Shown piece by piece: positions 7,218 to 29,993 of a DNA stretch of 43,960 bases. Position 1 is the stretch's first letter. The number at the start of each line of letters is the position of its first letter. Source of the DNA: an uncultured Verrucomicrobiota bacterium (lineage in GTDB: Bacteria; Verrucomicrobiota; Verrucomicrobiia; Opitutales; Seribacteraceae); the NCBI GenBank assembly GCA_902618175.1, contig CACMZN010000016.1:1-43960 (forward strand). Direction: 5' to 3'. Below the pieces are notes generated by a model, which was not told where the DNA came from, ran no database searches, and was given only the letters and a program-made list of their open reading frames with translations. A program made the position numbers and the translations under genes.

Positions 7218-7305
7218 CTGCCGACCAAAGTTGCGATTTCCGTAAGCATCGTCAAGCACAGTGCTTGAAGGCTTAATGAAAGCTGAAGATTCCAAAGAGT
7301 AAAAA

Positions 7306-10749: not shown

Positions 10750-11568
10750 TTAAGGAAGTTCCTCACCGAGGGTGGAAATAAATGCATCGTACTCCCCTTT
10801 TCCATAGTACATGCCCGCAATTAATTGAACCACTTCCAAAGTCAATGCCTCAACTTCTTGAGAAGATAAAGCGAATGCGCTTCCATCCATCGAAATCAAT
10901 TCATTTGTTTCGCTGCCGAACCTCAAGTCGGTATGAAAAAAATATCGCAGAACAAACGAGCATGAATAGGACGTCTCTGGGTATTGTAAGAGAAAATCTG
11001 ATGGAGTGTTGGACGAGAGACGCAGAGTACGTACACCATTTCCCAAAGAAGCGCCCTCATTGCTGCGAAGCGCGGGTAAATCAAGATCGATCGGAAAATC
11101 AACGGTTGCTTCAGGCAGAACCGAACGAAGTTGTTCAACTTGAGAAAGCAGCAAAGGATTTCCCATCAGAAAAACCTCCTTCAGTTCAGTCAGGTACATC
11201 AAGGGTGAAAGATCGCTCAATCCCATGTTCTCCAAATACAAAGTCTTCATCTCCTGCTCTTTTGTCTCTTTGATTAATTGCAAAACCTCGACACCCCCAT
11301 AAGACTCTGAATTCTCCAACCAATTCAAATAACCAGCTTCCCAGCTTGATTCATGCGAGTTTTCTATTTTAGCCCCCCAAGCTTCCCATGATTTTTCCTT
11401 AACCACGTAGGCAAGCATTTCTTGGTCTTTGGGCAAAAGATAAACCCAACTTTGATCCTCATTTGAGTATACCCAAGGATAATGCTCGAACCACATCCAA
11501 CCACGATTTCCCATAACCATTGCATGGAAGCAAAAAAAGAAAAAAAGCACGCAGTAAGTCTTATGCAT
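10750..11568 (-). CDS. Secreted Trp-rich LRR-like protein (copy B) with a divergent C-terminus
   Basis: This 272-aa protein has a signal peptide (MHKTYCVLFFFFCFHAMVMG). Its Trp-rich domain GWMWFEHYPWVYSNEDQSWV closely matches copy A, and the linker SYGGVEVLQLIKETKE matches PYGGVEVLAIIREARD of copy A. Only about two LRR-like units follow (TLYLENMGLSDLSPLMYLTE, KEVFLMGNPLLLSQ). The last 130 residues are not LRR; they contain beta-like text and a terminal helix (SQEVEALTLEVVQLIAGMYY) and match nothing I recognise. The ATG at 11568 is chosen over 11592 for the signal peptide. It precedes MORN copy B, repeating the copy A gene order. Confidence 0.85.
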   Translation of the reverse strand: MHKTYCVLFFFFCFHAMVMGNRGWMWFEHYPWVYSNEDQSWVYLLPKDQEMLAYVVKEKSWEAWGAKIENSHESSWEAGYLNWLENSESYGGVEVLQLIKETKEQEMKTLYLENMGLSDLSPLMYLTELKEVFLMGNPLLLSQVEQLRSVLPEATVDFPIDLDLPALRSNEGASLGNGVRTLRLSSNTPSDFLLQYPETSYSCSFVLRYFFHTDLRFGSETNELISMDGSAFALSSQEVEALTLEVVQLIAGMYYGKGEYDAFISTLGEELP

Positions 11569-11772
11569 ACAAAATCCAATCAACCTAAGCAAAATGGGAA
11601 AAATATTCTTTTCACCGGTCTTTCAGTCACTGACAACTTTTCTCCTTCATAGTTTCCGATTACAAGTCGTTGTTCGATTTGCAATTCTTATCTTATCCAA
11701 GTTGGATTTTAATTTCATTTTTTCAGTCATCTCCAACCGCTTGGAATCAGACTATAATCCATAATCAGAATT

Positions 11773-13848: not shown

Positions 13849-14544
13849 CTAAGACAATTCACCATCGCGCATCCTGAGACAGCGATGACAATTCTGAGCA
13901 ATTTCCAAATTGTGAGTAACCAAGAGAACCGCGATGTTTTCCGCCAAGGCAAACTCCTTGAGTAATTCGAACACTTTCTGGGAGTTTTGCGTGTCTAGGT
14001 TTCCAGTTGGTTCGTCAGCCAACAACAAAGCGGGAGAATTCACCAAGGCACGTGCGATCGCAACCCGTTGTTGCTCACCTCCTGACAATTTGTTGACAAA
14101 TCGGTCGACTTTGTCTTCCAAGCCTAACCTTGCAAGGATAACATCTGCTTTTGCCAGGGCTTCCTTACGCTCCGTACCAGATTTTCTCAATGGTAAGGCG
14201 ACGTTTTCACGCGCAGTTAATTCCTTGATCAGAAAATGAAACTGAAACACAAATCCAATTTTTTGATTTCGTAGTCTGGTTCTTGTTGCTTCATTTGAAT
14301 GAGCGACTGGATTCCCATTAAAAAACACCTCTCCTGATTCAGGTTGGTCCAAAAGTCCAAGAAGATAGAGCAAAGTACTTTTTCCGCACCCTGAGGGACC
14401 GACGACTGCAGTGACCTCACCCGAGTGAGCCTCAAAGGAAATCCTTTTGAGAGCCCTTACCTGAGTAGAGCCAGTGTGAAAGGTGTGGTTCAGATTCTCC
14501 ACTCTGAGAATAGGATCGATCTTATTTGGAGAAGTCGTCATCAA
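13849..14544 (-). CDS. ABC transporter ATPase, LolD/MacB type
   Basis: This 231-aa nucleotide-binding subunit has Walker [10 protein letters not shown] (49-57), Q-loop [11 protein letters not shown] signature [15 protein letters not shown], Walker [13 protein letters not shown] and switch histidine [10 protein letters not shown]. The FQFHFL(I/L)xELTA..NV context is typical for LolD/MacB/FtsE-like ATPases, which drive mechanotransmission rather than direct transport. It is translationally coupled to the upstream permease gene by an ATGA overlap. It powers the exporter encoded by the three preceding genes. Confidence 0.95.
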
Positions 14545-15803
14545 AGTGTTTCCCTTATGATCTTGGCAGGTTGGATCTTTGCCGCCCTTTTAGCAGGAAT
14601 CCAACAGGCCAGACAGACGAAAAAGGCCGCGATTAGAATGGCCCAAAAATAATGATTCGGATCCCAAGTAACCACAAAACTATCCGTTGTAAAAATACCT
14701 CGAATGCGAAGGGGAATCTTGGAAATTGCATAAGTTCCGAGAAAGCCCAATAAGCAACCCAAAACGCTTCCGACAAGCAGTACCAAGGCACCCTGCCATA
14801 GAAAAATGGAGGAAATTTCTCGCTCACTCAATCCAATCGATCGCAGGATGGCGATGTCTCGCGTTTTTTCGATGACCATAATGGCAAAGACATTAAAGAT
14901 GCCGAGTCCAGCCAACAGCAAGATGCTTGAAACCGTAATTGCAGAGGAGATGCTCAATGCCCTGAAGACGTCGAGCCACACTTTTTCTCTCTCTTGCCAG
15001 CTGACCACTCTATGGCCCAGAGTTTCCTGCATTTGCGCGGCCACCTCCCTGGCTCTGTCTGGATCGGTCATGGACAATTGAAAAACACTTCCACCCGAAG
15101 GCATGCCAAGGAAAGACCGAGCGGTTGAAAGATCCAAGTAAATCCGATTCTTGTCGATTTGACTGACTCCCGTTTCAAAGATACCGGAAACCTGTAATTT
15201 CATTTCTTCTTTGCCTCCTATCAAATTAACTCGGTCTCCGGGTTCCAACCGGAGACGCTGAGCAATGCGAACTCCCACGAAAACTCCTGATTTATTGTCT
15301 TTGAAATCATTGATTCCACCTAGAATGATTTGTCTTTCCAAATCGGACACCATGAGATGATTCTCAAGTTTGATACCATGCAAATGAACGGGATGTTTGC
15401 GCGAACCGGAATCCAAAGAAGCCGCTCCTTCCAAAACTTCGGATATTCCTGCTATTGAGGGAAAAAGAGCAAGGGCTTCTCTTAACTTTGATGGATATTC
15501 GATCCCTTCGACGTATCTTGCATCTTCTCTGGAACGGAAAACAAAACGAAGTTTTCCATCTTCCGAAACCTTGCTCACCGTACCATCCAAATCCTGAAAA
15601 CGATCGGATATTCTTATGGCTCCATTTGTTCCAAGAATTGTACGAATGAAAAAAGCCTCAAATCCGGAGGTTTGAGCCTGGGTTATAATGAAAAAAGATA
15701 TGCCTAAAACAATGCCGGTCAAACCCATGACCATGGCGCGGCGACGAGATAAAATATACCGATAGGCAAGTTCTAAAGGCAGAGAATCCACAAGATTCTT
15801 CAA
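14541..15803 (-). CDS. ABC transporter permease, MacB/LolC-E (FtsX) family
   Basis: This 420-aa protein has one N-terminal membrane helix (about 22-43, MVMGLTGIVLGISFFIITQA), a long periplasmic MacB_PCD domain and three C-terminal helices in an FtsX domain. The EKTRDIAILRSIGLSEREISSIFLWQG motif is diagnostic of that domain. It is coupled by ATGA overlap to both the upstream adaptor and the downstream ATPase genes. With an adaptor and TolC present, the assembly resembles MacAB-TolC (export of peptides, lipids or antibiotics) more than the lipoprotein-sorting LolCDE. The substrate is unknown. Confidence 0.93.
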   Translation of the reverse strand: MKNLVDSLPLELAYRYILSRRRAMVMGLTGIVLGISFFIITQAQTSGFEAFFIRTILGTNGAIRISDRFQDLDGTVSKVSEDGKLRFVFRSREDARYVEGIEYPSKLREALALFPSIAGISEVLEGAASLDSGSRKHPVHLHGIKLENHLMVSDLERQIILGGINDFKDNKSGVFVGVRIAQRLRLEPGDRVNLIGGKEEMKLQVSGIFETGVSQIDKNRIYLDLSTARSFLGMPSGGSVFQLSMTDPDRAREVAAQMQETLGHRVVSWQEREKVWLDVFRALSISSAITVSSILLLAGLGIFNVFAIMVIEKTRDIAILRSIGLSEREISSIFLWQGALVLLVGSVLGCLLGFLGTYAISKIPLRIRGIFTTDSFVVTWDPNHYFWAILIAAFFVCLACWIPAKRAAKIQPAKIIRETL

Positions 15804-16927
15804 TCAATGACGGAATACGACTTGACGGAAACGCGTTGTCCATCACGAAACAGATGAGGAGTCTCCACGATGACCAATTCTTCTTCGGACAAACCTTCCA
15901 GTATTTCAGCAGTCATCAAATTCCGAGCGCCAACCTGGACCTTCCTATATTTGACGATACCTTTTTCTACCACGAAGACGGCTTCTCCCAACAATGCCTT
16001 GCGAGGTACAAAAAGGCTGTTGGTTCTTATGGATTTGATGATCTCCGCATGCCCACTGGCTCCAATGGGAAACTTTTTCGGCTGCTTCACCCGTAGAAAT
16101 AACTTTCTTCTGCCGGTGGATCCGTCCACCCTTGGCATAATCACCGAGACGTTTGCATCGAAAACCTGCTGGCCAAACGCAAACAAGGACAAAGCAGCCG
16201 GCAACCCAACTGATATACCAGAAAAATCTTCCTCATTCAAAGATACTTCGACCATCCTTCCAACCGATGCGACTTCCCCTAGAGCATCCCCTGCAAAAAC
16301 CATTTTCCCGGGTGCGACCAAGCAAGAAATGAATTCACCCTCGATTGGACTTCGAACAGATAATTTATCTCGCATACTATGGAGGTTTTCCAAATTTGCC
16401 TTATGACCAACGCTCATTTCATCCCAGCTGATCTTCTCCTGCAATACTTGCATCTTCAACTTTTCCACGACGTTTCTCTTTTTTTCCAAATCTAGAGGAG
16501 ATACTTGTTTTTTCTCACCAAGGATTTCGAAGGATTCCAATTCCTTTTCATGAATTTTCAGTTCCGTCTCCAAATGGGAACCGACCTCCACTCTTTTGCG
16601 ATGGTGAAACTGAGCATCTTCAGCCAGCCTTATGGAACGATTCAGATCGTCTAAAACGAATTGAATCAAAGTTTCATTTTTGGCCACTTTCACAACTTCA
16701 CCAAGCGGAACCAATCGAACCCAATCCACAACTCCCTGGGATTGAGCCCTGAGTTGATAAGAAGCTTCAGCGAGAACCTTGACGTTTCCCGTCACCGTAT
16801 CTCTGATTTGTCCCTTTCGAACAGGTAACACCACGACCTCCTCCTTGAGAAAGTGAGCGCCAATGAAATAAATTCCGCAGAGGGCAACGAAGCATACAAG
16901 TAGAATCCGCGAAGAATTGAATTTCAT
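15800..16927 (-). CDS. Periplasmic adaptor (membrane fusion protein, HlyD/MacA-like)
   Basis: This 375-aa protein has one N-terminal anchor (RILLVCFVALCGIYFIGAHF). A split lipoyl/barrel-sandwich domain follows (QLRAQSQGVVDWVRLVPLGEVVKVAKNE; VRSPIEGEFISCLVAPGKMV), with an alpha-helical coiled-coil hairpin (about 90-180) and beta-barrel/membrane-proximal parts. The start ATG 16927 is preferred; ATG 16951 would overlap the TolC gene by 14 bases. It bridges the permease to the outer-membrane channel. Its stop overlaps the permease start (ATGA). Confidence 0.92.
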   Translation of the reverse strand: MKFNSSRILLVCFVALCGIYFIGAHFLKEEVVVLPVRKGQIRDTVTGNVKVLAEASYQLRAQSQGVVDWVRLVPLGEVVKVAKNETLIQFVLDDLNRSIRLAEDAQFHHRKRVEVGSHLETELKIHEKELESFEILGEKKQVSPLDLEKKRNVVEKLKMQVLQEKISWDEMSVGHKANLENLHSMRDKLSVRSPIEGEFISCLVAPGKMVFAGDALGEVASVGRMVEVSLNEEDFSGISVGLPAALSLFAFGQQVFDANVSVIMPRVDGSTGRRKLFLRVKQPKKFPIGASGHAEIIKSIRTNSLFVPRKALLGEAVFVVEKGIVKYRKVQVGARNLMTAEILEGLSEEELVIVETPHLFRDGQRVSVKSYSVID

Positions 16928-16937
16928 ATTCCGAAAG

Positions 16938-18236
16938 TCACTCCGAAGCATAGTTCAGCATTTGCAGGTATCGATCACGAATCTTCAAATGGTTGATTAC
17001 CGATTGAGTGCGAGAAATTTTTGCTTGATTCAAGGCAATCATAGCCTGATCCAGTTCATATGCGGTGATGTTGTTCTCATCAAATTGAATAAGACTCTTT
17101 TCATATCTCTTGATTGCAACTTCCACTAATTTTCGATTCAATTCGATCATCCGAGTTAGATTGGTCAATTCCTTGTATAGATTCGTAACATTCATTCGTA
17201 ATTCCTCAAGGTGTCTTTTGACCTCCAAGCGATATTTTCTCTTTCTTGATTGAGCAGATTCCTTTTGACCTTTGCTCAGATGAGAATCCCACAAAGACCA
17301 ATTCGCTTCCAACCCAACTATGAGGTTGTTGCGATTCACCTTGTCATTGAAATCAACTGAGGGAATTTGATCCTGATAAGCAATTCCAACCAGATCAAAC
17401 TTAGGCAGACGGGCAGAATTGGCAACTTTCAGATTCTGCTCCTCGATCCGTATCTGAAGTCTGATACGATCAATTTCGGCTGAAGACAGTTTCGAAATGA
17501 GTTGAGGCTTGGAGCTTTGGAAGGAATGGTTTTGACACAGTTCGATGAAAGAAGACGTTTGGTTGCAGTCCAGTTTCTCATCGGAATTGGTTAAGTGTGA
17601 AAACATGGCAATTTCGTAATCAAAGGTTCTACGCAAGTCAGCCAAACTAATCTCATGTTGGATTCGAACCGCCGTTGCCTCAGCCACCGCCAAGTCAGTG
17701 ACCAAGCCCAAAGTCAAACGACTGACGCAGTTTGCCTCTCCTTTCTTTGCGTTTTTCAAGGATTCGAAAGCCAATTTCATCTGAAACTTTCTCAAAACCA
17801 AGTCGAGATATTTTACCCGCAGTTCACTTCTAACTTGCTTCCTGAAAACAGACAGATTCAGTTCGGCCTGCTCACTCGCAATCTGACTTTTTCTCTGCTC
17901 TGCTTTCAAGGCACCCCAGTGGAACAGAGGTTTCCTTACAAGCAAAGCGCTGAAGAAACGCTCATGAGACTGGAACTCGTAAGAAGGACGATCCTCTTGA
18001 ACAGATTGACCCTGAAAGTTAAAACCCGCTTTGATTCCTGCCATGGATGATGCAATCAATTGATTTGCCTTGGCTTCTTGCACTTGTTCCCTTCTCTCTG
18101 CCAAGAGCGGAGAATCAAGATCCACCTTGCTCAAGACTGAGGCTAATTCAGGGAAATAAAACTCTGCCAATTCACTTTCTGCAAAAACCTGAGGCAACCC
18201 ATAGGAAACCAAAAGAAACCGAACAAGAAAAGGCAT
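16938..18236 (-). CDS. TolC-family outer-membrane efflux protein
   Basis: This 432-aa protein has a signal peptide (MPFLVRFLLVSYGLPQVFA) and long amphipathic helices typical of outer membrane efflux proteins (OEP). Two repeated halves contain LSVFRKQVRSELRVKYLDLVL and NVTNLYKELTNLTRMIELNR, and AYELDQAMIALNQAKIS lies near the end. It forms the trimeric channel of the exporter and is the first gene of the four-gene operon. The ATG 18236 is chosen; TTG 18254 would place the start inside a hairpin (18243-18276). No separate transporter partner is needed, since adaptor, permease and ATPase follow directly. Confidence 0.92.
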   Translation of the reverse strand: MPFLVRFLLVSYGLPQVFAESELAEFYFPELASVLSKVDLDSPLLAERREQVQEAKANQLIASSMAGIKAGFNFQGQSVQEDRPSYEFQSHERFFSALLVRKPLFHWGALKAEQRKSQIASEQAELNLSVFRKQVRSELRVKYLDLVLRKFQMKLAFESLKNAKKGEANCVSRLTLGLVTDLAVAEATAVRIQHEISLADLRRTFDYEIAMFSHLTNSDEKLDCNQTSSFIELCQNHSFQSSKPQLISKLSSAEIDRIRLQIRIEEQNLKVANSARLPKFDLVGIAYQDQIPSVDFNDKVNRNNLIVGLEANWSLWDSHLSKGQKESAQSRKRKYRLEVKRHLEELRMNVTNLYKELTNLTRMIELNRKLVEVAIKRYEKSLIQFDENNITAYELDQAMIALNQAKISRTQSVINHLKIRDRYLQMLNYASE

Positions 18237-18242
18237 ATAAAT

Positions 18243-18276
18243 AAAGTCTCTCAAAGGACATGAGAATAGAGACTTT
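18243..18276 (-). repeat. Inverted repeat before the exporter operon
   Basis: AAAGTCTCT (18243-18251) and AGAGACTTT (18268-18276) are perfect complements separated by 16 bases. The element lies between the cytochrome c stop (18317) and the TolC start (18236). No T-run follows, so it is not a clear terminator. It could be a regulator-binding palindrome or an RNA hairpin covering the ribosome-binding region. Confidence 0.5.
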
Positions 18277-18316: not shown

Positions 18317-18985
18317 TTACTCCGCAAAAACGGCTGGATACATATCCACCAATTGATCTCCGGTCCACTGGTCAACTTGGTCTTTGGACTCTTCTCTGAA
18401 CTGAGCTACCTCAGATTCAAGAATCTCACCAGCTTGGTTGCCCCAAGCTTGCCTAACGTAGGTGGTTACGTTGGCAATCTCGCGGTCATCAATGGCAACC
18501 GCCGCCATGTTGACGGCAGCAGAAGTGCCGTATACTTTACCCATCACCTCAATCTCACCCTTCAGACCCTTGAGGATTATTTGGGAGATCAGGGATGGTT
18601 CGGTGGTCACCCAGCGTGAACCCGCCAAGGGTGGATATTGTCCTTCGATCCCAAGGCCATTTGCCTGGTGGCAAGAGGCGCAGCGCACCCCAAAGATTTT
18701 TTTTCCCGATTCTATTTTTCGTTCCAATCGAAGAGCATCCTTCTCTTCGTCCGACAACTCAACGATTTCCCTAGGCGGATGAAGTTGAAATTGATTGGTG
18801 GAGTGAGCAAGTTGAATGGAGCAAACGAAAATGAGACAACCAAAAACGAAGACAAAGATTAAGGGCGCGGAAAGAAAGCCCTTGGTGGGAGGATGTTTTT
18901 CATGATTCAGTTTGGAATGGATTTCAACCATTTCCTCGTCCGACATGAACTCGCTCGATTGATTTCTGTTATTTTCGTCACTCAT
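18317..18985 (-). CDS. Membrane-anchored monohaem cytochrome c (CcoP-like), last gene of the respiratory operon
   Basis: This 222-aa protein has one membrane helix (FLSAPLIFVFVFGCLIFVCSI, about 37-57) and a class I cytochrome c domain with haem motif CASCH. The order Q.NG.G..GQ.PPLAGS, then an axial Met candidate near NMAAV, then EIANVTTYVRQAWGN is typical. A tail with EVAQFR and WTGDQL resembles that of the preceding fusion protein, so the two cytochrome domains are likely duplicates. The ATG at 18985 is preferred; a TTG lies just before. It starts 4 bases after the preceding stop. Role: electron transfer at the periplasmic face, to or from the CcoN-like unit. Confidence 0.9.
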   Translation of the reverse strand: MSDENNRNQSSEFMSDEEMVEIHSKLNHEKHPPTKGFLSAPLIFVFVFGCLIFVCSIQLAHSTNQFQLHPPREIVELSDEEKDALRLERKIESGKKIFGVRCASCHQANGLGIEGQYPPLAGSRWVTTEPSLISQIILKGLKGEIEVMGKVYGTSAAVNMAAVAIDDREIANVTTYVRQAWGNQAGEILESEVAQFREESKDQVDQWTGDQLVDMYPAVFAE

Positions 18986-18989
18986 CAAA

Positions 18990-20150
18990 TTAATTGTTGG
19001 AAGGACTTTGGGGAATGGAAGCGGATGCGCTCAATTCATCAGCCGTCCACATCTGCATGGGTGCGCGTCCCGCTAATGAGGAACGTACCGTAGCCACTTC
19101 ACCCGGAGATACCGCCGATGCCGAGTTGCCCCATTCGTTGCGAATGTAAGTGAGTACGTCTGCAATCTGCTGATCGGTCAGAGATCCAGGCGGAATGCCG
19201 GGTGGCGCCATGACGTTGTTGTAAGTTATGCCGTTTACCTGAATTTCACCCATCAATCCATAGATGGAGATCTTAATGAGTCTCTCCTTATCGCCCAGAA
19301 CCCAGTCGGAGTTTGCAAGAGGAGGGAACTGACCTGCCAGACCTTCACCGTTAGTCTGGTGACAAGTGTAACACAAACCACCTCCAGGCGCGGCCTTCAT
19401 GTAAATTTCCTTGCCTGAATCAATTTGATTCTGAAGCCATTGGGGAACAGTTGTTGAGACTTCAGTGGTTTGCTCGAGTGGAATCGAGTCTTCCTCAGCC
19501 AACTCGACTTCTTCAGATTCAACAAAAGCCATTTCAGGAAGTTCGTAATCTTGTTTGAGAGCCTTTAGGTATGCAACGATACGATCGGCCCGCAGAGAAG
19601 GTTTGATGTACCTCTTGATGGACAAATCGTCTGCATTTACGATTTCAAGATATCCTTCCTTGGGTTCCTTATTGGTCTCGTAAAGAAAAGGACTTGGCGG
19701 ACACACAGATTCAGGGACTAAAGACTGAGGTTCGAAAAGGTGTTGATGAAGCCATTCGTCCGAATATTCTCTCAATCCGATATTAGCCAGATCCGGACCA
19801 ACTCGAGTATTCCCAAGAAGCACATATTCCTGAAGAACGTAATCACGGGCCACCGATGGACGTTTGCCCCAGCCTCTTTCCACGTCAAAACCAGCCTCTA
19901 CCATCCTTACCTGCTGAGTATGACAAGTTGCGCAACCCAAGGATAGATATTCCTTCGCTCCGAGTTCGGCTATCCCAGGCAAAGCATGTGGATACAGATC
20001 CGCATCTATTGGAATGGAACCGTCTTCATTCAATACTTCCGCCGTGGGAGCCAAGTCACCGAACTGACTTCGGGCACCAACCACGAAAGCTAACCAGGCA
20101 AAACCCAGAGTAAGAAATATGCTACAAGTGAATTTAAAGAGATTGTTCAT
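18990..20150 (-). CDS. CcoO-like cytochrome c fused to a second cytochrome c domain
   Basis: In this 386-aa protein the N-terminal 200 residues resemble CcoO. There is an anchor helix (CSIFLTLGFAWLAFVVGA), haem motif CATCHTQQVR and the following VGPDLANIGLREYSDEWL, where canonical CcoO has TGPDLA. An acidic linker (about 207-243) leads to a class I cytochrome c with motif CYTCH, GQFPPLANSDW and a likely axial Met in NNVMAPPGIPPG. Canonical CcoO is monohaem; this is a dihaem fusion. It overlaps the CcoN-like stop by ATGA, so the two are translationally coupled and probably one complex. It is paralogous in its C-terminal half to the next gene. Confidence 0.92.
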   Translation of the reverse strand: MNNLFKFTCSIFLTLGFAWLAFVVGARSQFGDLAPTAEVLNEDGSIPIDADLYPHALPGIAELGAKEYLSLGCATCHTQQVRMVEAGFDVERGWGKRPSVARDYVLQEYVLLGNTRVGPDLANIGLREYSDEWLHQHLFEPQSLVPESVCPPSPFLYETNKEPKEGYLEIVNADDLSIKRYIKPSLRADRIVAYLKALKQDYELPEMAFVESEEVELAEEDSIPLEQTTEVSTTVPQWLQNQIDSGKEIYMKAAPGGGLCYTCHQTNGEGLAGQFPPLANSDWVLGDKERLIKISIYGLMGEIQVNGITYNNVMAPPGIPPGSLTDQQIADVLTYIRNEWGNSASAVSPGEVATVRSSLAGRAPMQMWTADELSASASIPQSPSNN

Positions 20151-21559
20151 GCGGATGCTTCCTTCTTCGAATCCATTACTTTGGAAAAAAGCAAATCGAA
20201 AGGATTAGGAAAAATAACCTTCCAGACATTGATTACGAAAACGAGCTGAGAAAATCCAAGCATGATAAAGGCAATCTTGGTAATCAAAAAATAAGGTTGT
20301 ACGGAAGAAATCACGGATGAACCCCATTCCAAGGAAGGTTGCTGCGCCAAAACTCCATGAGTCAGTCCTCCAATCAGGTAGGCGAGAAGCAAAACCAACA
20401 CACCAAATGCAGATGTCCAGAAATGAAAGGATTTCGCCGCCTTACCAATTTCCTTCCCTGTTATCTTGGGGAGCATGTAATAGACGACTCCAAAGATGAT
20501 CATGCTGAAGAACCCATAGACTCTTTGGTTAAAATGGAATTCATTAATGATGGAAAATTGGGTGATCTTCGCTACTGCAGGAAGGGAAAAGACTACGCCG
20601 ATGTAACTTGATATGGTGTAGGACAAGGTTCCAAAGATGACAAAACGCAAAGGTAAACTGTTCCAAACCTTACCAATATCCTCGAAAGCAGTGGAATGAA
20701 AATTAGTCGAAGCAACGGCAATGGGGAAAATCATGGCAATGCTCATGACTGTTCCAATGGCAGGTATCCACATGGGAACCGGACCACCTTCGAAATGATG
20801 AACTACGGACCAAGGAGCAAGAATGGCAATGCACCAAAATCCAAAAATAGCCAAGTAATACTTATCTATGGGCCTGCCAAGAATGGATGGGATCACATAA
20901 TAAGCTGCCCCTAAAGCAACTGGTGTCAGCCATAGCCAAATCAGATTTTGTCCAAACCACATGGAAAGAACACTTTGCAGGGTTCCTCTTGCAGGATTGA
21001 TTTCCAAACCATTCCATGCAATCAGAAAAAGGATCGGAAACCACAGAAGGGAGGCTAGTAAAAACCATTGAGGCGCGATGGTTTCCTTTACTTTCCGCGA
21101 ACTGTGAACAACTAAGATAAGGAAGGAAATGATGGAGTATGACAAGAGCAAAGCAGGCCAAACGACCGTAGGCATCTCAAGCATCTCATGGGCATTCATA
21201 TGACCGTCCATGATCCCCAAAATTCCAAAGGTTATGGACATATTCCAAAGAATCCCTCCGAAGAGCAAATAGTATCTTCCCCTGACCTCCGCTTGAGCCA
21301 GGCGAGAAATGATCCACAACGAAACTGCAAAGATGGAATTACCACCCCACCCGTAGACAAACGCATTGGCTTGGGCGATCTTGATTTTCCCGTATGAGAA
21401 AAATTCATAGGAGGACAAAAAGAAAGGATCGGTCAGCTTCAGGGCACCCACGTAGGCCAGCAAAGCCGCCGCGAGCAACCACATTCCAGCCGATGCTACA
21501 AAAAAACAAAGAGCGACTTTGCAGGATTTGTCTATAATTTGTTCAGAAGATTCCTTCAC
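20147..21559 (-). CDS. CcoN-like haem-copper oxidase subunit lacking canonical haem b and CuB ligands
   Basis: This 470-aa, roughly 12-helix protein shares with cbb3 CcoN the blocks ANAFVYGWGGNSIFA, NLIWLWLTPVALGAAYY(V/F)IP, PW..VHHFEGGPVP and YGFFSMIIFGVVYYMLPK. Against Pseudomonas stutzeri CcoN (recalled), low-spin haem ligand His60 is Gln63 (codon CAA, 21371-21373), the second low-spin His349 falls on Asn344 and CuB His207 on Gln204. The Tyr251 position is Ala248. His254-His255 and His342 remain and could match two CuB ligands and the haem b3 ligand. A three-residue insertion before His342 makes that alignment less firm. It sits between the 99-aa gene and the CcoO fusion. Oxygen reduction by the usual mechanism looks unlikely. 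Confidence 0.88.
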   Translation of the reverse strand: MKESSEQIIDKSCKVALCFFVASAGMWLLAAALLAYVGALKLTDPFFLSSYEFFSYGKIKIAQANAFVYGWGGNSIFAVSLWIISRLAQAEVRGRYYLLFGGILWNMSITFGILGIMDGHMNAHEMLEMPTVVWPALLLSYSIISFLILVVHSSRKVKETIAPQWFLLASLLWFPILFLIAWNGLEINPARGTLQSVLSMWFGQNLIWLWLTPVALGAAYYVIPSILGRPIDKYYLAIFGFWCIAILAPWSVVHHFEGGPVPMWIPAIGTVMSIAMIFPIAVASTNFHSTAFEDIGKVWNSLPLRFVIFGTLSYTISSYIGVVFSLPAVAKITQFSIINEFHFNQRVYGFFSMIIFGVVYYMLPKITGKEIGKAAKSFHFWTSAFGVLVLLLAYLIGGLTHGVLAQQPSLEWGSSVISSVQPYFLITKIAFIMLGFSQLVFVINVWKVIFPNPFDLLFSKVMDSKKEASA

Positions 21560-21567
21560 TGTTCAAA

Positions 21568-21867
21568 TCATTGGATAGGTTTTTTAGTCTTTTGATAATC
21601 CATTGTGACATTTTTCATGACTAATTGGAGGGACGAATTCAAATCGTTGTGACGAGAATCGATTCTAGACACATAGGCATCGTTTTCCAAATGATGTTCC
21701 CTGATTTTATTCATACGAGCATCATCAATTGCTTTGGTTGCCACATCCGGATCATCGGGTTGAAGAATTTCATGTAGGAAAACGAAACAAACCGCAGAAA
21801 GCGAAACCAATAGGAAAGTGAAAAAGATTTTGCACCCGTCTGCCGACTGTCTTTTTGGATCATTCAT
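21568..21867 (-). CDS. 99-aa single-helix membrane protein between ActF and the CcoN-like gene
   Basis: It has one membrane helix (IFFTFLLVSLSAVCFVFLHEIL, about 14-35), then a charged, helical periplasmic or cytoplasmic part (DDPDVATKAIDDARMNKIRE). Its start overlaps the ActF stop and it lies 8 bases before the CcoN-like start, so it is expressed with the complex. I do not recognise a family. By position it may replace a small ACIII subunit (ActG/ActH) or a CcoQ/assembly factor; this is inference only. Confidence 0.75.
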   Translation of the reverse strand: MNDPKRQSADGCKIFFTFLLVSLSAVCFVFLHEILQPDDPDVATKAIDDARMNKIREHHLENDAYVSRIDSRHNDLNSSLQLVMKNVTMDYQKTKKPIQ

Positions 21868-23164
21868 GGTGGTGTATGGAATCCAGTATGCGTGGATCCC
21901 GGATTGGTACGATTTCAGCCGCCTTGGATTGAAAACTCCTTATGACCGCCCAAACGCTGAGGCATCCGACTCCCAAGAAAGAAAAGACGCCCCAGAACAA
22001 ATGCGAGCCCAAAACGGAACGAGTTTCATAGCCGACCTTGGCACCTGGAATGATTTCTCGTCCAGGAATGATGTTCCAATAAAGATCGAGGGCATGAAAC
22101 GCTAGTATCCAACAGGCAATGAAAACGATTTGGCTTCTGTTCACTTTTCTGTGGTAAGAAAGAAGAAAAAGAAAAGGAAAGAAAAAATGACCAAAGATCA
22201 ATCCCATGCTTACCCAGAACCAACCCGATAAATTCCCGGTGTTTGGATCAATCTCTCGGATTGTATACCAAAAGGTTTCTTCGGGAATGTTAGCGCTGTA
22301 TATGAGAAAATACTGTGAGAAACTGATGTAAGCCCAAAAAACAGTGAATGCAAGTGACAGACAGCCCAAATCATACTGATGGGCTTGTTTGTAAAGACCT
22401 TTCAGGCGACCCTCTGCAGACATGTAGATACAGATGAGGATGGTTACGGCAAGAGAAGCCCTGATTGCAGAAGAAAAGAACCAAACACCATACATGGTCG
22501 AAAACCACTGGTATTCCAAACTCATAAACAAGTCGAAAGCGCCAAAGGTCAAGGCCAGAGCCGCCGCGGGAATACCGATTGCAGAAACTTTGAGACCTTT
22601 TCTAGTCCACTCGGGATTGCCGTCCAAGTCCTGAGAAAAGGAAACTTTTCTCAACCAATGGCTTAGTCCGCAAAATATACCGAAATAAAGAATCATGCGG
22701 AGACTGAAAAAATACAGATTCAAATATCCGGATTTTTTTTGATACAAAACATCTTCTCCAACTGTGATTTGCTTGATTGGATCAAAAGTCTCGTTCTGGG
22801 CATTAATCCATGACCATAGAATTCCAGATTGATCACCGCCAAACCATGCAATCAAGAGCAATGGCAAAAAACAAAGGCCAAGCCAGGGAAATGATGCGAG
22901 ACAATGTTCGAGTTGTCTTCTCACAACGGGAGTCCACCGGGAATTGAAGATGCGGAAGATCATAATCAGCATAAGCATTCCTATGGCGATGCTGAGCCAA
23001 AACGAACATCCCCAAAGCCAACCCAAAAAAGGGGACTTGTCCCCAATGGCGAGACCGGTGATGAGGCCAATCGAACCTACGCCCAAGCCTAAAATGGAAC
23101 CTGCGAGAAGCTTCGTCGACAGATCATACTTCCCGGTTACGGACAATACCTCTTCGCTATTCAT
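21860..23164 (-). CDS. actF: ACIII subunit ActF, quinol-interacting NrfD-like membrane protein
   Basis: This 434-aa, about ten-helix protein matches ActF: LLAGSILGLGVGSIGLITGL near the N-terminus, the ALTFGAFDLFMSLEYQWFSTMYGVW block typical of ActC/ActF, and FSQYFLIYSANIPEETFWY. ActF is the second NrfD-type subunit of alternative complex III, a quinol:cytochrome c (or oxidase) oxidoreductase. The start at ATG 23164 overlaps the ActE stop (ATGA); longer frames are not needed. The C-terminus ends in His-His-His-Glu, which is natural sequence here. Confidence 0.93.
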   Translation of the reverse strand: MNSEEVLSVTGKYDLSTKLLAGSILGLGVGSIGLITGLAIGDKSPFLGWLWGCSFWLSIAIGMLMLIMIFRIFNSRWTPVVRRQLEHCLASFPWLGLCFLPLLLIAWFGGDQSGILWSWINAQNETFDPIKQITVGEDVLYQKKSGYLNLYFFSLRMILYFGIFCGLSHWLRKVSFSQDLDGNPEWTRKGLKVSAIGIPAAALALTFGAFDLFMSLEYQWFSTMYGVWFFSSAIRASLAVTILICIYMSAEGRLKGLYKQAHQYDLGCLSLAFTVFWAYISFSQYFLIYSANIPEETFWYTIREIDPNTGNLSGWFWVSMGLIFGHFFFPFLFLLSYHRKVNRSQIVFIACWILAFHALDLYWNIIPGREIIPGAKVGYETRSVLGSHLFWGVFSFLGVGCLSVWAVIRSFQSKAAEIVPIRDPRILDSIHHHE

Positions 23165-23826
23165 GACCCACCTTGAACAACCTCCTCGTTGGCCTGGCCA
23201 ACATAACTTTGAAGAGCTCGAACATAGAGCACGATGGCCCATCTTTCCCTTGGAGTGAGTTTATCCTTCAAACCCAACATGATGCCGGAAGCGGAACCCA
23301 TAGAGATAGCATGAAAAATCTGTCCATCAGGCCAACGGGCGCCGGATTCAAGATAAGTCCCGGATTGGGAAGCGTCGGACAAATTCCTGGCAGCCAATCC
23401 AAATTGAGTGGTAACTCCCTTCCCGTTTCCGTACTGCCCGTGACATATAGAACAGTGAATGTCATACTTTTCCTTCCCCAAGCGCATCAAGGAAAGATCA
23501 ATGCCTGCTTCCGGAGGAATCTTATCAACCCAAGCGTCATTTTCATCCTTACCTGTCTTGTATCCAACTGAGTGGAATTCAGGAGATGAAGAGAAGACGT
23601 TTTCGTGAGTCAAGGCATTTCCTCGAAGTACGGTACCGGTTACCGGCAGACGATCCGCTTGGCGATCCGCAAAAAAGTTGTTGGCAGTTTGAGATTTGTA
23701 CTTCGCCTGTCTGTCCATATCGGGAAAAACTTCGATGGGAGTATTTTGGGAAAAATCACCCCTTCGACCCAGTATCGACAGCAAAATGAAAACAAGAACA
23801 AAAAATATTGGAATGAAATACCTCAT
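23161..23826 (-). CDS. actE: ACIII subunit ActE, monohaem cytochrome c
   Basis: This 221-aa protein has an N-terminal hydrophobic helix (YFIPIFFVLVFILLSILG) without a lipobox, then PVTGTVLRGN, a common ActE motif. Haem motif CSICHG follows YDIH, with GNGKG after it, and the axial Met lies probably within AISMGSASGIMLG. It terminates ACIII electron transfer at the periplasmic side. In some ACIII complexes ActE is a lipoprotein; here it appears helix-anchored instead. It overlaps ActD by one base (TAATG) and ActF by four. Confidence 0.92.
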   Translation of the reverse strand: MRYFIPIFFVLVFILLSILGRRGDFSQNTPIEVFPDMDRQAKYKSQTANNFFADRQADRLPVTGTVLRGNALTHENVFSSSPEFHSVGYKTGKDENDAWVDKIPPEAGIDLSLMRLGKEKYDIHCSICHGQYGNGKGVTTQFGLAARNLSDASQSGTYLESGARWPDGQIFHAISMGSASGIMLGLKDKLTPRERWAIVLYVRALQSYVGQANEEVVQGGS

Positions 23827-24368
23827 TAATTCATCACGGGTTCACGAATCATAGTGAGGGATTTCCCTCCTAACTCCTTGAGGAAAGATTTGGTTTCCTC
23901 GTCATCAAATTTCGGATCTTCAACCTCAATCACAACCAAGTACCTGTCATCTCCTGTTCGACCAAAATTAGGATGCTCGAAAACTGGGTGATTATGACGC
24001 GGCAATCCGTTAAGGAAGAACATACCAAAAAGCGTACCGAATGCAGCAAATAAAATCGTGAGTTCATAAAAAACCGGAAACGGATATATCGGACTGAAGT
24101 AAGGTTTGCCTCCGACAATAAGAGGATAATCAAATGAATTCATGTACCAAACGATGAGCATCCCCGTGAAAAACCCCGTAATGCCTCCAGCTAGGGTAAA
24201 TAAAGGAACCTTGGAACGACCCACACCCATTTGAGCATCCAATCCATGAACTGGAATCGGAGTGTAGCATTCCCAATTGGTGTAGCCTTCGGAACGAATT
24301 TTTCCCGCGGCATCATACAAATCCTTGGCGGAATTAAAAGTAGCGGACAAACCATATTTGATATCCAT
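23826..24368 (-). CDS. actD: ACIII subunit ActD (DUF3341-like membrane protein)
   Basis: This 180-aa protein begins YGLSATFNSAKDLYDAAGKIR and has TPIPVHGLDAQMG, followed by two helices (LFTLAGGITGFFTGMLIVWY and VFYELTILFAAFGTLFGMFF), then NGLPRHNHPVFEHPNF. This is the standard ActD layout. ActD has no cofactor and structurally supports the ActC/ActF membrane part. It lies 18 bases after the ActC stop and overlaps ActE by one base. Confidence 0.93.
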   Translation of the reverse strand: MDIKYGLSATFNSAKDLYDAAGKIRSEGYTNWECYTPIPVHGLDAQMGVGRSKVPLFTLAGGITGFFTGMLIVWYMNSFDYPLIVGGKPYFSPIYPFPVFYELTILFAAFGTLFGMFFLNGLPRHNHPVFEHPNFGRTGDDRYLVVIEVEDPKFDDEETKSFLKELGGKSLTMIREPVMN

Positions 24369-24386: not shown

Positions 24387-25811
24387 TCAGTGAACCTTGC
24401 CTCCATGAGGATCCGCCTGCGGCATGACCGATTTTACTTCGGCCATGGGCATGAGAGGTAAAAACCGTAAAAACAAAAGAAACAAAACGGAGAAAAAGCC
24501 AAAAGTTCCCGTAAAGGTGAAAATATCAACAATTGTGGGTGAGTAGTATCCCCAACTGGAGGGAAGAAAATCGCGGGACAAAGTCGTATTGGCGATGACG
24601 AAGCGCTCGAACCACATTCCAATGTTCACAAAAATCGAGATTATCCAGACCAAAGGGATATTTTCTCTTATTGCCCGAAACCAGAAAAGTTGTGGACAAA
24701 TAACATTGCAGGAAACCATTATCCAATAAGCCCACCAATAATTTCCAAAAGCACGGTTTACAAATGCGAAACCTTCATAGGAATTGGCTCCGTACCAAGC
24801 GATGAAAAATTCCATTGAATAGGCGTATCCAACCATGCTCCCGGTTGCGAGGGTTATCTTACACATGTTGTTTATGTGATTTTGCGTAATGAGATCATGA
24901 AGGCCGAACACGGCTCGAAGGGGAAGCAAAAGCGTCAACACCATCCCGAACCCGGAAAAAATCGCACCCGCCACAAAATAAGGAGGAAAAATGGTGGTGT
25001 GCCAACCAGGCAAATTGGCTACGGCAAAGTCAAAGGAAACGATCGTATGTACGGAAAGAACCAGAGGAGTGGAAAGACCGGCAAGAAGCAGATAGGCCAT
25101 CTCAAAGTTTCTCCAGTGATTGTTGGCATTACGCCAACCCATGGAAAAAATTCCATAAACCACTTTTCTCCAAGTTTGTGTCGCTCTGTCCCTCAAAACC
25201 GCCAGATCGGGAATCATCCCCATGTACCAGAATAAGATGGATACGGTTGCGTAGGTCGAAACGGCAAATACATCCCATTCCAAGGGACTTCTGAACTGCG
25301 GCCAGATTGCATTTGCATTGGGTAAGGGAAAAAGCCACCAGGCGTACCATACCCTACCCACGTGAAAAAGCGGAAAGATACCAGCACATAGAACCGCGAA
25401 AACAGTCATCGCTTCGGAAGCTCGGTTTATGGAAGTTCTCCATTTCTGTTTGAGCAGACAAAGTACTGCTGAAATGAGAGTTCCAGCATGACCAATTCCG
25501 ATCCAAAAAACGAAATTTACGATTGCCCATCCCCAGTTGACGGGATTGTTGTTTCCCCAAACTCCAACACCAGTTGAAACCAAATACAGCAAGCCCATCC
25601 CTGTGAAGCTTGCTACAAACAATGCTATTATGAAACACCACCACCACCAAATTGGAGTTTTGCCCTCGACGATTCCACAGATTTTCTCAGTTACCCAGTG
25701 AAAACTTCTTTTATTCAGAACAAGAGGCTCGTCGTGCCAAGGAGCGGGTTTGACCTTGGACATGATTTCCGGCTGCGCATCAATCTCTTTGGTTTCCGAT
25801 AGGGTAGCCAT
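24387..25811 (-). CDS. actC: ACIII subunit ActC, NrfD-like quinol-binding membrane protein
   Basis: This 474-aa protein begins [10 protein letters not shown] at ATG 25811, one base after the ActB stop; earlier codons in frame are overlap with ActB. It has about ten helices with [45 protein letters not shown] and [19 protein letters not shown]. These blocks are typical of ActC and related PsrC/NrfD subunits. The GHAG and HVGRVWYAW segments contain residues near the quinol site in known structures. Role: menaquinol oxidation and possible proton translocation. Confidence 0.95.
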
Positions 25812-25812
25812 G

Positions 25813-28800
25813 TCAATGTGCGTTTCCAGAATGCCCACCCGAGTGACCATCGTCGTGATGACTAGGATGGGATTTGTCGTGGTATTCACGGGAGGAGTGA
25901 GGAAAAGAAGAAAAATCCGGCATCCGCTCATTTGGATTTCTTACTTTTGCCAGAAAAGTGGTTCTAGGTCTGGTGTTCAAATAACCCAAAACGGAATAAT
26001 CGCGAGAATCACTTTTTAATTGACTGACTTTGCTTGAGGGATCGGAAAGATCTCCGAAAGAAATTCCGTCAGAGGGGCAAACTTGCTGGCAAGCGGTTTT
26101 CATTATTCCGTCCTTTACCTTCAAGTCTTCTTTTTTCAGGGTAATGTCAGAACCGTCCTTGCCGGTTGATAAAAGAGCGTGACGTTGGGCCGCTACCTTG
26201 ACGTTTATTTTCGCTTCCTGAATACGCTGAACACAGTAAGTGCATTTCTCCATCACTCCACGCATTCGGACAGTAACATCAGGATTTTTGCCCATGGCGG
26301 GCAAAGAATCATTCTTTTCTCCCAAAGGACCTTTGTAGACTTCGTCCTTATCTCTCTTGTTCCAATCGAAAAAATTGAATCTCCTGACTTTATATGGGCA
26401 ATTGTTGGCGCAATAGCGGGTACCAACGCAACGATTGTATGCCATGGCATTCAATCCCTCCTCATCATGCACGGTGGCATTCACCGGGCACACACTTTCG
26501 CATGGCGCGGTTTCGCAATGCATGCAGGAAATCCCTTGAAAGGAAACTTGCACATCAGATGGAATATCGGTCCCTTCGCGGGGTGCCGAACTATAGTACC
26601 TATCCAATCTAATCCAATGCATTTCTCTTCCTCTGAGGACTTGATCCTTGCCCACGACGGGGATGTTGTTTTCGCTTTGGCAAGCTACGACGCAGGCACT
26701 GCACCCGGTACATTGGTTGAGATCAATAACCATTCCCCACTGGTGCAAACCGTGAACTTCCGATTTCTCGTAGTTATGATCAGGATGTTCGTAAGATGAA
26801 TTACCCCGTGGAGTTGTCTGAGACTTTGAGGCAAGATCCATGTTCTGGTCTCTGCCCCAAACTGGAGGAGAGTGAGACTCAGCACCCATGCTTGTGGCGA
26901 AGGAATTATTCTCGACGTATTCGGATACGTTGGCTTCCCGAACAATTGCCCTACCTTCCATGGACCAGTGTTCTTGTACGTTTGCCAAAACCTGGAATTC
27001 ACCCGTGGGAGTGCAACTTACACCGGTTTGCACGCGTTTGCCCTCAGTATTCATGAAAGGTGATGAATCATAACCACAACCAGTTCCAACTCGGCCGGTT
27101 TGAGATCTACCCATCCCGATTGATGCAACTATTGTATAATCCGCCAGTCCAGGTTGAAGATAGAGGGGACCACGCAGTTTGGCTCCGTCGATCAAAAGTT
27201 CTACGATGGGCGCCGTTTGTTTTCCGTTTATGAAATTGGCGTTGTCAGGAGCTATCTCGCCAGTCTTGTTCAACAGGGCAGCTTTGGGCAACAGTCCCAA
27301 ATCCGGATACTTAGTCTGCAAATCCTTAGCAAATGCCGGACTGATCAGCAAGGCGTTGTCCCAGGTCAACTTGGTTATGGGATCAGGACATTCCTGCATC
27401 CATCCATTGTTGGCGAATCGTCCGTCCCAGCAATGAAAGTCAGGTACGAGAAGAATTTCAAGATTCTGATCACTGAGTCGTGGAGCGACTGGCGAAGACG
27501 CAAGGAGAAAAGATCTGAGTTCAGGGGATAAAAACTCCTTGCTTCCCGAAGCCATCTTTTCAGCAGAGGAAAACATTGAACCAGTAGGCTTGTATGGAGC
27601 TACTCCAAGTCTCAAAAAATCATCGAAAGAAACTTTATCCGATATCTTCTCGAAAAGGGATTTCGTCAAATTATGTGCATCTTCAGAATCACCCAGTATT
27701 CTGAGCAGACAGTCAACGTCGGATTTGGTGTCAAACAGAGGAGCAATCAAAGGTTGAACAGGAACCAAGGTTTCGTTGTCCCAAGTCAGTCCAAGATCCC
27801 ACGATTCAAGGTAATGAGATTGACCGATATGCAAATCACACCGCTCGGAGGATTCGTCGATCGAATAGCCAACACGGGCACTGTTGTCCAATTTGTCGAA
27901 TAATTTTTCCCAATCAATGAATTCTTTGGTGTGATAAATGGGATTCCCGCCTACGATGAGCAAAGAATCAACTTCTCCTGCATTAATCGAATCCACAAGC
28001 GATCCAACAGAAGAGGAAAGGGTTGGATCAACGGGTTTGTAGCGTATCGTTTTTCCAATTGCACCCAAAGCACGGTTGATTGCATATACTGCAACCTGAA
28101 CATCTTGCGGCAAATGATTTCCAGCAAGTACCAAGGAAGAGGAAGGATTCTCGCAGAGATCATCGACGCATGTGAGTATCCATTCGTTTTGGGCAGTTAA
28201 GATATCTTGTTCCTTTTCGAGATGGGACAACAAGGTTTCATCGGTACTTTTTAATTTTCTGAGAATTTGAGCCAGAATCAAATTTGCAAAGACAGACATT
28301 TTGGAACTCTCCAAACGAAGCCTGTGATCAGCGACCCCGCCGGTGATTGTAAGGTCGGATTCAACCGAATAAAGCCGATTCATAGATTTGGCATCCTCAG
28401 GTTTGTTTGGTCTGATGTGCCTTTTTTTCATGAACGAACGAGAATTTGCCTGATTGAAAGGTTCCCTGTTTCCAAGAAAATCGCAATCCAAGGACAAAAC
28501 TCTTTTGCATTTGTTGAAGTTTGGAATCGATCGTAGGGAGTTGTCAGCCTTTAATGCGGAAGCTAAGGATTTCTCAGGTTTAAGAAAGTCGATGGGGTCG
28601 TATTCAAACCATTTGATCCCCTGGGTAAGGTAATCATCCTTGATTTTGTTGACGACGACGGAGAAGGACGAATCGGAAAGCACAGCCATTTTTTTCTCTT
28701 TCGCCCACTTGCTGACTTCGAGAAGTAAAGTATCCGTAGGTTTTTTCTTCCATCTCATGAGAGTGGAACCTTGTGTCTTCTTAGAATCCTTCTTGAAAGA

Positions 28801-29256
28801 ACCACGCGATCGATCTGGATCATAAATTTCAAGAACCGAGGCTTGGGCATAAATATCAGTTCCGCCTCCAAACGGAAGATACGAGGGATTCCCTTCGATC
28901 TTAGTAGGTCTCCCTTCATGGGATTCGACAATCAGAGGATTGAATCCTTTGGAAGTGGGCATGGAGGTGGAGTAAAAACTTGGAATGCCCGGCACCAATT
29001 CCTCAGGACTTTGTCCGTAAGGGAGGATGGCGTGTTCGGGACGACGACAACTAGTCATGCCCAAGCCCGCCAAGCCGAAAGATGCAGCCATCATCTTCAT
29101 GAAGCCTCTTCTTTGCACTCCGTCTAGCATGCTTGCTCCGTCGGGAAATTCTTTTTCGATCCAAGATCGGAATCCAGGAGTCTCGGCAAGTCCATCCAAG
29201 CTTTTCCAGTAATGCCTACCCCTGCTTACCAGGTGGTCATCCTTTTCCATTATCAT
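25813..29256 (-). CDS. actB: ACIII subunit ActB, molybdopterin-like plus iron-sulfur fusion
   Basis: This 1147-aa protein has a Tat-type signal ([18 protein letters not shown]) ending near a Cys, then a degenerate molybdopterin-oxidoreductase domain (about 75-790) and a PsrB-like ferredoxin domain. Cys patterns for four clusters are visible: [35 protein letters not shown] and CTYC with CQQVC. In ACIII the first domain lacks molybdenum. The C-terminus is His-rich, with seven His in the last 22 residues. The start ATG 29256 overlaps the ActA stop (ATGA). Role: electron wire from the quinol site to the cytochromes. Confidence 0.95.
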
Positions 29257-29993
29257 CGGTGGCAGCCCGTACAACTCAAGGGAGGATTAACGCCCCAATT
29301 TTCCTTGATCTCCAATCCAGCGTGTATTTGAGCTAGATCCAAATCCTGTCCATCAGAAGTTGGAACGGTCCAATCAAGGTTGGTTACTTCCGTCATCGGA
29401 CGGAGAGATTCCTCTGGACGACGATGGCATTCCAAACAAAAGGACATGCTCAGATGCTTGGCATGATGAACGACTTTCATTTGATCAATTCTACCATGGC
29501 ATTCCACGCAACTTATACCCCTGTTCACGTGGATGGCATGGTTGAAGTATACATAGTCAGGGACTTTATGAATCCGTACCCATGGTACGGAAGGACCCGC
29601 AGTGAGCAGTCCGTCCTTGTTCAAGTCTTCTTCATCCGAAAGTCTGCCGTCTTTATCCGTGTCTTCTCCAAAATAGGAATTTCTAACTACTTCCAAAAGA
29701 GGAGAATTGGCCTTGATGTTTTTATGGCAAGACATACAGACATTGGCGGAAGGAACATTTGCATGGGAAGATTTGTCTACACCATGATGACAATACCTGC
29801 AGTCGAGGCCGAGTTGTCCGGAGTGAAAACTATGATCATAGGCTACAGGTTGCGTCGGTTTGTATCCAACTCGGGTATACTTAGGAGTCGCATAATAAGT
29901 GATGCCCGCTGTGACTGCTCCACCTATCAAGCCGAGACATATCACTAGCTTCAGGGGAATGTAGTTGGCCCACCTGGGGAAAAAATTTCTCAT
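29253..29993 (-). CDS. actA: ACIII subunit ActA, pentahaem cytochrome c with EF-hand-like loop
   Basis: This 246-aa protein has an N-terminal membrane anchor (LKLVICLGLIGGAVTAGITYY) and five CxxCH haem motifs at Cys65, 86, 162, 186 and 241 (CRYCH, CMSCH, CVECH, CLECH, CTGCH), the normal ActA count. Between haems 2 and 3 lies an insertion with a perfect EF-hand loop pattern at 111-122 (D.D.DG.L...E) and a partial second loop at 123-128 (D.N.DG). It is the first gene of the ten-gene operon and overlaps ActB by four bases. The promoter should lie in the 232-base divergent gap upstream. Confidence 0.95.
   Translation of the reverse strand: MRNFFPRWANYIPLKLVICLGLIGGAVTAGITYYATPKYTRVGYKPTQPVAYDHSFHSGQLGLDCRYCHHGVDKSSHANVPSANVCMSCHKNIKANSPLLEVVRNSYFGEDTDKDGRLSDEEDLNKDGLLTAGPSVPWVRIHKVPDYVYFNHAIHVNRGISCVECHGRIDQMKVVHHAKHLSMSFCLECHRRPEESLRPMTEVTNLDWTVPTSDGQDLDLAQIHAGLEIKENWGVNPPLSCTGCHR

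Follow-up and report, generated by a model that had tools for sequence, protein, structure and literature searches.

The window, as the whole stretch of 43,960 nucleotides analysed here is called (contig CACMZN010000016.1 from an uncultured Verrucomicrobiota bacterium of the order Opitutales), contains at 20147..21559 on the minus strand a ccoN-like gene, which encodes a haem-copper oxidase subunit I of 470 amino acids that appears to be stripped of its cofactors, as judged from the open reading frame, Pfam, alignment and an AlphaFold model. The frame starts with GTG and has no internal stops, and the plus-strand reading of the frame starting at 20147 has many. Ten minus-strand genes follow one another here, several of them overlapping slightly with a neighbour, and this one is the eighth; it lies downstream of a complete and ordered actABCDEF cluster for alternative complex III (ACIII). 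This cluster is formed of ActA (29253..29993; Pfam, NCBIfam and motif count), a cytochrome c with five CxxCH motifs, ActB (25813..29274; Pfam and NCBIfam), which is molybdopterin-oxidoreductase-like with 4Fe-4S, the NrfD-type ActC (24387..25931; Pfam), ActD (23826..24368; Pfam PF11821, 1.4e-63), the monohaem cytochrome c ActE (23161..23826; Pfam and motif) and ActF (21860..23242), which has no Pfam match and was assigned from its position and its similarity across loci. A 99-amino-acid protein (21568..21867) with no Pfam match and, by eye, one membrane stretch then occupies the slot of ccoS in intact relatives; of the loci retrieved, only those of the window family yielded similar proteins, genus g3 of that family excepted. 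The ccoN-like gene overlaps by 4 bases with a gene for CcoO (FixO domain) fused to a class I cytochrome c domain, with two CxxCH motifs (18990..20150; Pfam, NCBIfam and motifs), and the last gene encodes a CcoP-like monohaem cytochrome c with one CxxCH motif (18317..18988; Pfam, NCBIfam and motif). An earlier note on this DNA had placed the CcoN-like subunit in a supercomplex with ACIII, a link that is borne out as gene order.

The ccoN-like protein matches the Pfam COX1 profile with an E-value of 4.5e-40, above the cut-off, and scores 113.7 bits against the NCBIfam ccoN family TIGR00780, below its cut-off of 583. Its residues were paired with those of cbb3 oxidases by phmmer alignment to the CcoN chains of PDB 9g6b, 3mk7 and 8smr, together with a scripted position check. 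The ligand roles of the CcoN residues and their P. stutzeri numbering are assumed here, whereas the aligned columns were computed. Gln63 and Asn344 align with His60 and His349, so that both histidines of the low-spin haem b pair are replaced. Gln204 takes the place of CuB His207 and His254 and His255 align with CuB His257 and His258, which leaves two of the three histidines of the CuB triad. The active-site tyrosine of helix VII, Tyr251, is replaced by Ala248, and the proximal histidine of haem b3, His347, is present as His342. These replacements and retained histidines are the ones named in the earlier note, and the alignment placed no other histidines at the canonical ligand positions. Its statement that most of the haem b and CuB ligands are replaced is right for the low-spin pair, one CuB histidine and the tyrosine but slightly strong, as the b3 histidine and two of the three CuB histidines remain; the same losses uphold its view that this is not a normal oxygen reductase.

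The four replacements Gln63, Gln204, Ala248 and Asn344 are each found in 23 of the 23 distinct sequences of the window clade, a comparison of orthologues that the earlier note had proposed, and since the same residues are fixed in every one of them, sequencing error, or chance, is rejected. All 25 rows from the window family have lost ligands, and the retention of ligands in other families of the same order shows what was lost.

Homologues were collected from three sources. The first was a search of 57 related genomes, in which some match was seen in 42, a few being other oxidases; it provided 30 loci together with stretches from 18 of the genomes. The second was a set of 80 named loci that ranked best among 355 candidates, and the third comprised 60 stretches around ActD, mostly one per genus of the window's order, where ActD is present in 256 of 372 genomes. 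Once duplicates and partial proteins were dropped, 155 distinct proteins remained, each from a single open frame; the one split gene seen (L161), which has motifs of the intact type, was also left out. All seven ligand residues are kept in 80 of the 155 (intact), and the other 75 are degenerate, with 41 patterns between them. In the degenerate set H60 is kept once, Y251 once, H349 in five rows, H207 in 11, H257 in 22, H347 in 26 and H258 in 37. The haem b3 histidine is thus lost in 49 of the 75, the three CuB histidines are never found together (0/75) and 24 have none of the seven residues left. At least one low-spin ligand is missing from every degenerate row and both are missing from 69.

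It is very improbable on these data that the protein is an oxidase or NO reductase working with unusual ligands. Known NO reductases do vary their non-haem site, and glutamine is frequent at four of the seven ligand positions of the degenerate proteins. Against such an enzyme are the universal loss of low-spin ligands, the homologues with all seven residues gone, the large number of different patterns and the absence of ccoS described below. NO reductase (NOR) in particular is rejected, as no NOR family is among the NCBIfam matches of the ccoN-like protein up to 0.001 and the matches of its predicted structure to NOR are weaker than those to CcoN.

The degenerate proteins belong largely to one part of the bacterial tree. 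By kinship code, 64 of the 75 are from the window's order, and the other 11 are from named records, ten of them titled Opitutales, Opitutia, Opitutae or Puniceicoccaceae; the eleventh, L090, is titled only Verrucomicrobia and falls in the same clade of the ACIII-gene tree. The named rows of other groups, including Planctomycetota, Myxococcales, Acidobacteria and Chthoniobacterales, are all intact (26/26). The order act-ccoN-ccoO-cytochrome c is much alike in intact and degenerate loci, apart from a changed order in L095 and L118 and several Planctomycete loci without an ActD match; a match to ActF is present in 69 of the 80 intact and 74 of the 75 degenerate loci, several of the loci without one being short. 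In genus g22 of family f19 (L038, L175, L177, L178, L181-L185) an extra monohaem CcoO-like gene, coding for about 270-305 amino acids, stands between actF and ccoN.

A wider sample of the phylum was searched with the fully stripped L053 as query, which matched 90 of 288 genomes. A further 32 loci were then read, picked non-randomly from the listing, with ActF alone sought rather than the whole act set. ACIII-type neighbours are present at 26 of these, with ActF in 25 and, in the fetched stretch of L245, only CcoO- and cytochrome-type genes; 25 of the 26 are degenerate without ccoS and one, L253, is intact with ccoS. As L268 is from the window's order, 24 of the 25 phylum loci with ACIII-type neighbours outside that order are degenerate. 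The remaining six of the 32 are stand-alone intact CcoN genes with no ActF nearby. Four of the loci read (L242, L243, L245 and L247) are from one genus with small genomes (2.2-2.5 Mb) and encode a very divergent degenerate CcoN with the pattern SESSHFV. There is, then, a family of ACIII-linked CcoN relatives that, as far as sequence can tell, are without the means to hold their cofactors, and it extends through many families of the class. No report of cofactor-free CcoN in ACIII clusters was noticed in searches of an open-access library. In the Verruconatronum paper the three genes right after the act genes are listed as a caa3 oxidase (PMC13274419).

The loss of ligands is accompanied by the loss of ccoS. 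In Rhodobacter capsulatus CcoS is reported to be required for the insertion of b haems into cbb3 oxidase (PMC10588857), it is described as essential for an active cbb3 enzyme (PMC7558416), and ccoS mutants are reported to contain a fully assembled but inactive cbb3 (PMC5742617). A Pfam FixS match was found just upstream of ccoN in nine of 12 intact genomes (one below the cut-off) and in none of 13 degenerate genomes. A ccoS profile built from these nine matches, all from intact loci, and applied to the sequence ahead of each of the 155 genes (1000 bases at most) detected ccoS in 79 of the 80 intact loci, L099 being the exception, and in none of the 75 degenerate loci, including that of the window. 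When only loci with at least 500 bases upstream are considered the values are 76/77 and 0/73, so the contrast goes far beyond the nine intact seeds. On the ACIII-gene tree (86 rows), every independent pair that sits on supported branches points in the same direction (10/10, sign test p 0.002). No ccoS was found elsewhere in the window genome, which is 67% complete, with a Pfam search that missed three of the 12 intact genomes. The joint loss of ligands and ccoS is what one would expect if the protein had ceased to bind b haems. The gene ccoG is present in nine of 12 intact and three of 13 degenerate genomes, a comparison confounded by other oxidases.

These observations also bear on whether the window lineage has kept a residual haem or metal protein, in which His342 would bind a single haem b3, and His254, His255 and Gln204 perhaps a copper, for use as a sensor of O2, NO or CO or for a slow side activity. 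His255 and His342 are indeed found in 23 of the 23 clade sequences and His254 in 22, and the CcoN fold is predicted to be kept. However, 225 of 455 columns are invariant in the clade, and as this is half of them the retained histidines are weak evidence of function. Moreover, these loci have no ccoS match, all three histidines are gone from a sister genus within the family (L045 and L050), and a low-spin haem that could feed the site would have no pair of ligands. A residual haem or metal protein is therefore regarded as unlikely.

The genes are nonetheless maintained. In the 14 of 20 degenerate pairs where it is defined, ccoN dN/dS is 0.025-0.22, and within the window family it is 0.025-0.057 (five pairs), the value being saturated for the pair that contains the window sequence itself; intact ccoN pairs lie between 0.025 and 0.31. 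Degenerate ccoN is under purifying selection. Simple decay towards a pseudogene, to which the loss of catalytic residues might point, can be given hardly any credence, because dN/dS is well below 1 in the defined pairs, the same replacements are fixed throughout the window clade and the gene order is conserved across families. Open frames count only in part, since the rows were chosen as single open frames. The claim that this is not simple decay, made from the intact frame and now with the minus strand specified, has held.

The fold also appears to be retained. The AlphaFold model of the window protein has a pLDDT of 94.2 and a TM score of 0.89-0.90 to 3mk7_A at 22% identity, and that of L053, where all seven residues are missing, has a pLDDT of 92.6 and a TM score of 0.88-0.92. 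For both models the best match is cbb3 CcoN. These two examples, in answer to a structure prediction that had been proposed as a check, suggest that the CcoN fold is kept in degenerate proteins. The 104 columns conserved in intact CcoN were scored in 32 degenerate representatives, where the seven ligand columns have a mean retention of 12.5% and the other 97 of 66% (Mann-Whitney p 9e-5). Many fold glycines, prolines and aromatics are retained, and some non-ligand columns are lost as often as ligand columns. The same columns are relevant to a proton or ion conduit, in which a cofactor-free CcoN would move protons, driven by redox-linked conformational change of ACIII, a mechanism already put forward for ActC and ActF. 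Some polar residues are conserved (Tyr220, Tyr234 and Asn286), but others are often lost, with position 237 kept in 16% and position 212 in 31% of the 32 representatives. A conduit of this kind is considered to have only a small chance of being the explanation.

It is likely that the direction of change is loss, because the outgroups are intact. A quick CcoN tree, which put nearly all degenerate rows together with two changes, was rejected as poorly searched, as better trees were found when the f24 rows (+50 lnL) or the f19 rows (+36.5 lnL) were held together. A careful CcoN tree (60 of 87 rows) gives three changes, with at least three forced. On this tree approximately unbiased (AU) tests reject the grouping of 18 f13 rows (p 0.013) and that of L171 with L078 (p 0.0005), but do not reject the f19 grouping (p 0.09). 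The losses supported by CcoN itself are those of L097 beside the intact L148 (96/98), of L079 within an intact clade (100/94) and of the main cluster. The CcoO tree gives 10 changes, at least three of them forced, and the ACIII-gene tree 15, at least 10 of them forced. There are at least three independent losses on these trees, and perhaps up to 15.

The cytochrome c partners have been kept. The CxxCH motif of CcoO is present in all 154 loci having CcoO, and its axial methionine in 79 of 79 intact and 37 of 75 degenerate loci. The methionine is replaced by cysteine in all 25 window-family rows (SVCPP in the window) and by histidine in eight other degenerate rows, which suggests an unusual His/Cys or bis-His haem c in these CcoO proteins. 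As an independent correlate the loss of this methionine has too few informative pairs (median p 0.5) and is not claimed. In the window, CxxCH motifs are retained by the CcoP-like protein as well as by the cytochrome c domain fused to CcoO, and both have, by eye, candidate methionine ligands; the partner motifs may fit an electron flow shifted to the outer haems.

A further terminal oxidase, for which the earlier note had suggested a search, is present in the window genome as one further COX1, an A-type oxidase on contig C18 with all six histidines and HPEVY. A second haem-copper oxidase with all six histidines was found in eight of eight degenerate genomes checked, these having been picked among genomes showing two COX1 matches. 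Four genomes with a single high-scoring COX1 have an intact CcoN (G045, G110 and G169 of genus g13, 97-99% complete, and G040, 80% complete), although their scores already looked intact when they were picked. In G255 (99% complete, 4% contaminated) a degenerate CcoN (AYGVQQQ) is accompanied by a short fragment of a second COX1. Cytochrome b (PF00033) is found in the window genome and was not found in four of seven degenerate genomes tested (G039, G054, G066 and G179, 97-100% complete), so that ACIII may be the only complex III there.

Beyond the ten genes the window contains, directly downstream on the minus strand at 13849-18254, an exporter set of a MacB/FtsX-type permease with HlyD-type and outer-membrane efflux proteins (Pfam) and an ATPase recognised by eye. 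Leucine-rich-repeat proteins are encoded at 6348-7295 and 10750-11592, also on the minus strand, the second being a weak match.

There are strong grounds, in the missing ligands, to conclude that the b haems and copper are absent from degenerate CcoN. The best explanation as a whole, with a somewhat better than even chance of being right, is that this is a cofactor-free pseudo-oxidase kept as a membrane anchor for cytochromes c carrying electrons out of ACIII. The ancestral module, actABCDEF-ccoS-ccoN-ccoO-cytochrome c, would have been an ACIII-oxidase unit of the sort that relatives still have. Many lineages, that of the window among them, would then have lost ccoS together with most or even all of the haem and copper ligands but kept the membrane fold and the cytochrome c partners. 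The cofactor-free CcoN would act as a membrane anchor that docks CcoO and the CcoP-like cytochromes to ACIII, and electrons would leave ACIII via haems c to another oxidase, the A-type enzyme in the case of the window genome, instead of being used inside CcoN. The anchor role is the best of several readings, and the physical docking to ACIII and the direction of electron flow are inferred. Of the roles offered in the earlier note, a scaffold is thus favoured, whereas with the haem ligands and ccoS gone CcoN itself is a poor candidate for electron transfer.

Several observations weigh against a membrane anchor of this kind. With His342, His254 and His255 still in place, the window protein might bind haem b3 or a metal. 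The six stand-alone intact CcoN loci also have no ccoS match nearby. The axial methionine of CcoO is lost in 38 of 75 degenerate loci and in none of the 79 intact loci, and as CcoO is itself altered it may not be a simple conduit. The CcoN trees and the ACIII-gene tree conflict on the number of losses, which could be explained by the long branches of the degenerate rows or by swapping of ccoS-ccoN between operons. Finally, by eye, eight drafts of the order (G001, G052, G071, G201, G272, G275, G282 and G355, 50-93% complete) list only one, low-scoring COX1. Six of these, all fragmented, were searched again (G001, G201, G071, G272, G275 and G282, corresponding to L274-L279); the degenerate CcoN was the sole COX1 match, and neither bd oxidase (PF01654) nor ccoS was found. 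The other oxidase may have escaped these incomplete assemblies, or it may be truly absent from some lineages; the latter would be at odds with electrons flowing to a further haem-copper or bd enzyme. Confidence in the anchor is lowered slightly on account of these drafts, and two of the rival readings gain a little.

Compared with cbb3 CcoN (3mk7), the window protein is similar in its predicted fold and in its downstream CcoO-like and cytochrome c genes. It differs in the missing low-spin pair, CuB histidine and tyrosine, in that ccoS was not found, in that the gene adjoins ACIII genes and in that its CcoP-like partner has one haem motif. Within ACIII, the ActB1 domain has lost its molybdopterin. 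ActF is described as having no cofactor nearby and being without the quinol-site residues (PMC5928083). These are likewise ACIII parts related to redox enzymes, but they are from other protein families and not from the haem-copper oxidases. The R. capsulatus ccoS mutants also have a cbb3-type complex made without the b-haem insertion factor, but, as described, that is a laboratory mutant of a normal oxidase (PMC5742617), whereas here it is the natural state and the ligands are lost too. Supercomplexes of ACIII with an oxidase are reported for Flavobacterium (aa3) and Rhodothermus (caa3), and ACIII gene clusters often have oxidase genes after them (PMC8552683, PMC5928083). In contrast to these, as they are described, the oxidase subunit that follows here is without cofactor ligands, and the association is suggested by gene order.

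A more far-reaching proposal, held tentatively and at less than even chances, is that a former terminal oxidase has been taken into ACIII as a subunit without cofactors across a bacterial class, giving a complex of ActA-F, apo-CcoN, CcoO and cytochrome c in which the apo-subunit anchors the exit of electrons and perhaps conducts protons, and that this evolved repeatedly from intact ACIII-cbb3 units. High-affinity oxidase genes have been taken as an indicator of microaerobic respiration (PMC8407424), and here a standard oxidase profile (Pfam COX1, above the cut-off) marks genes without the residues to hold the cofactors. The loci also form a natural series within one operon, in which oxidase subunits range from intact to fully stripped, with the absence of ccoS as a clean marker. 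With this series one can test which role, apart from catalysis, an oxidase fold has in a supercomplex, and how ACIII passes its electrons on.
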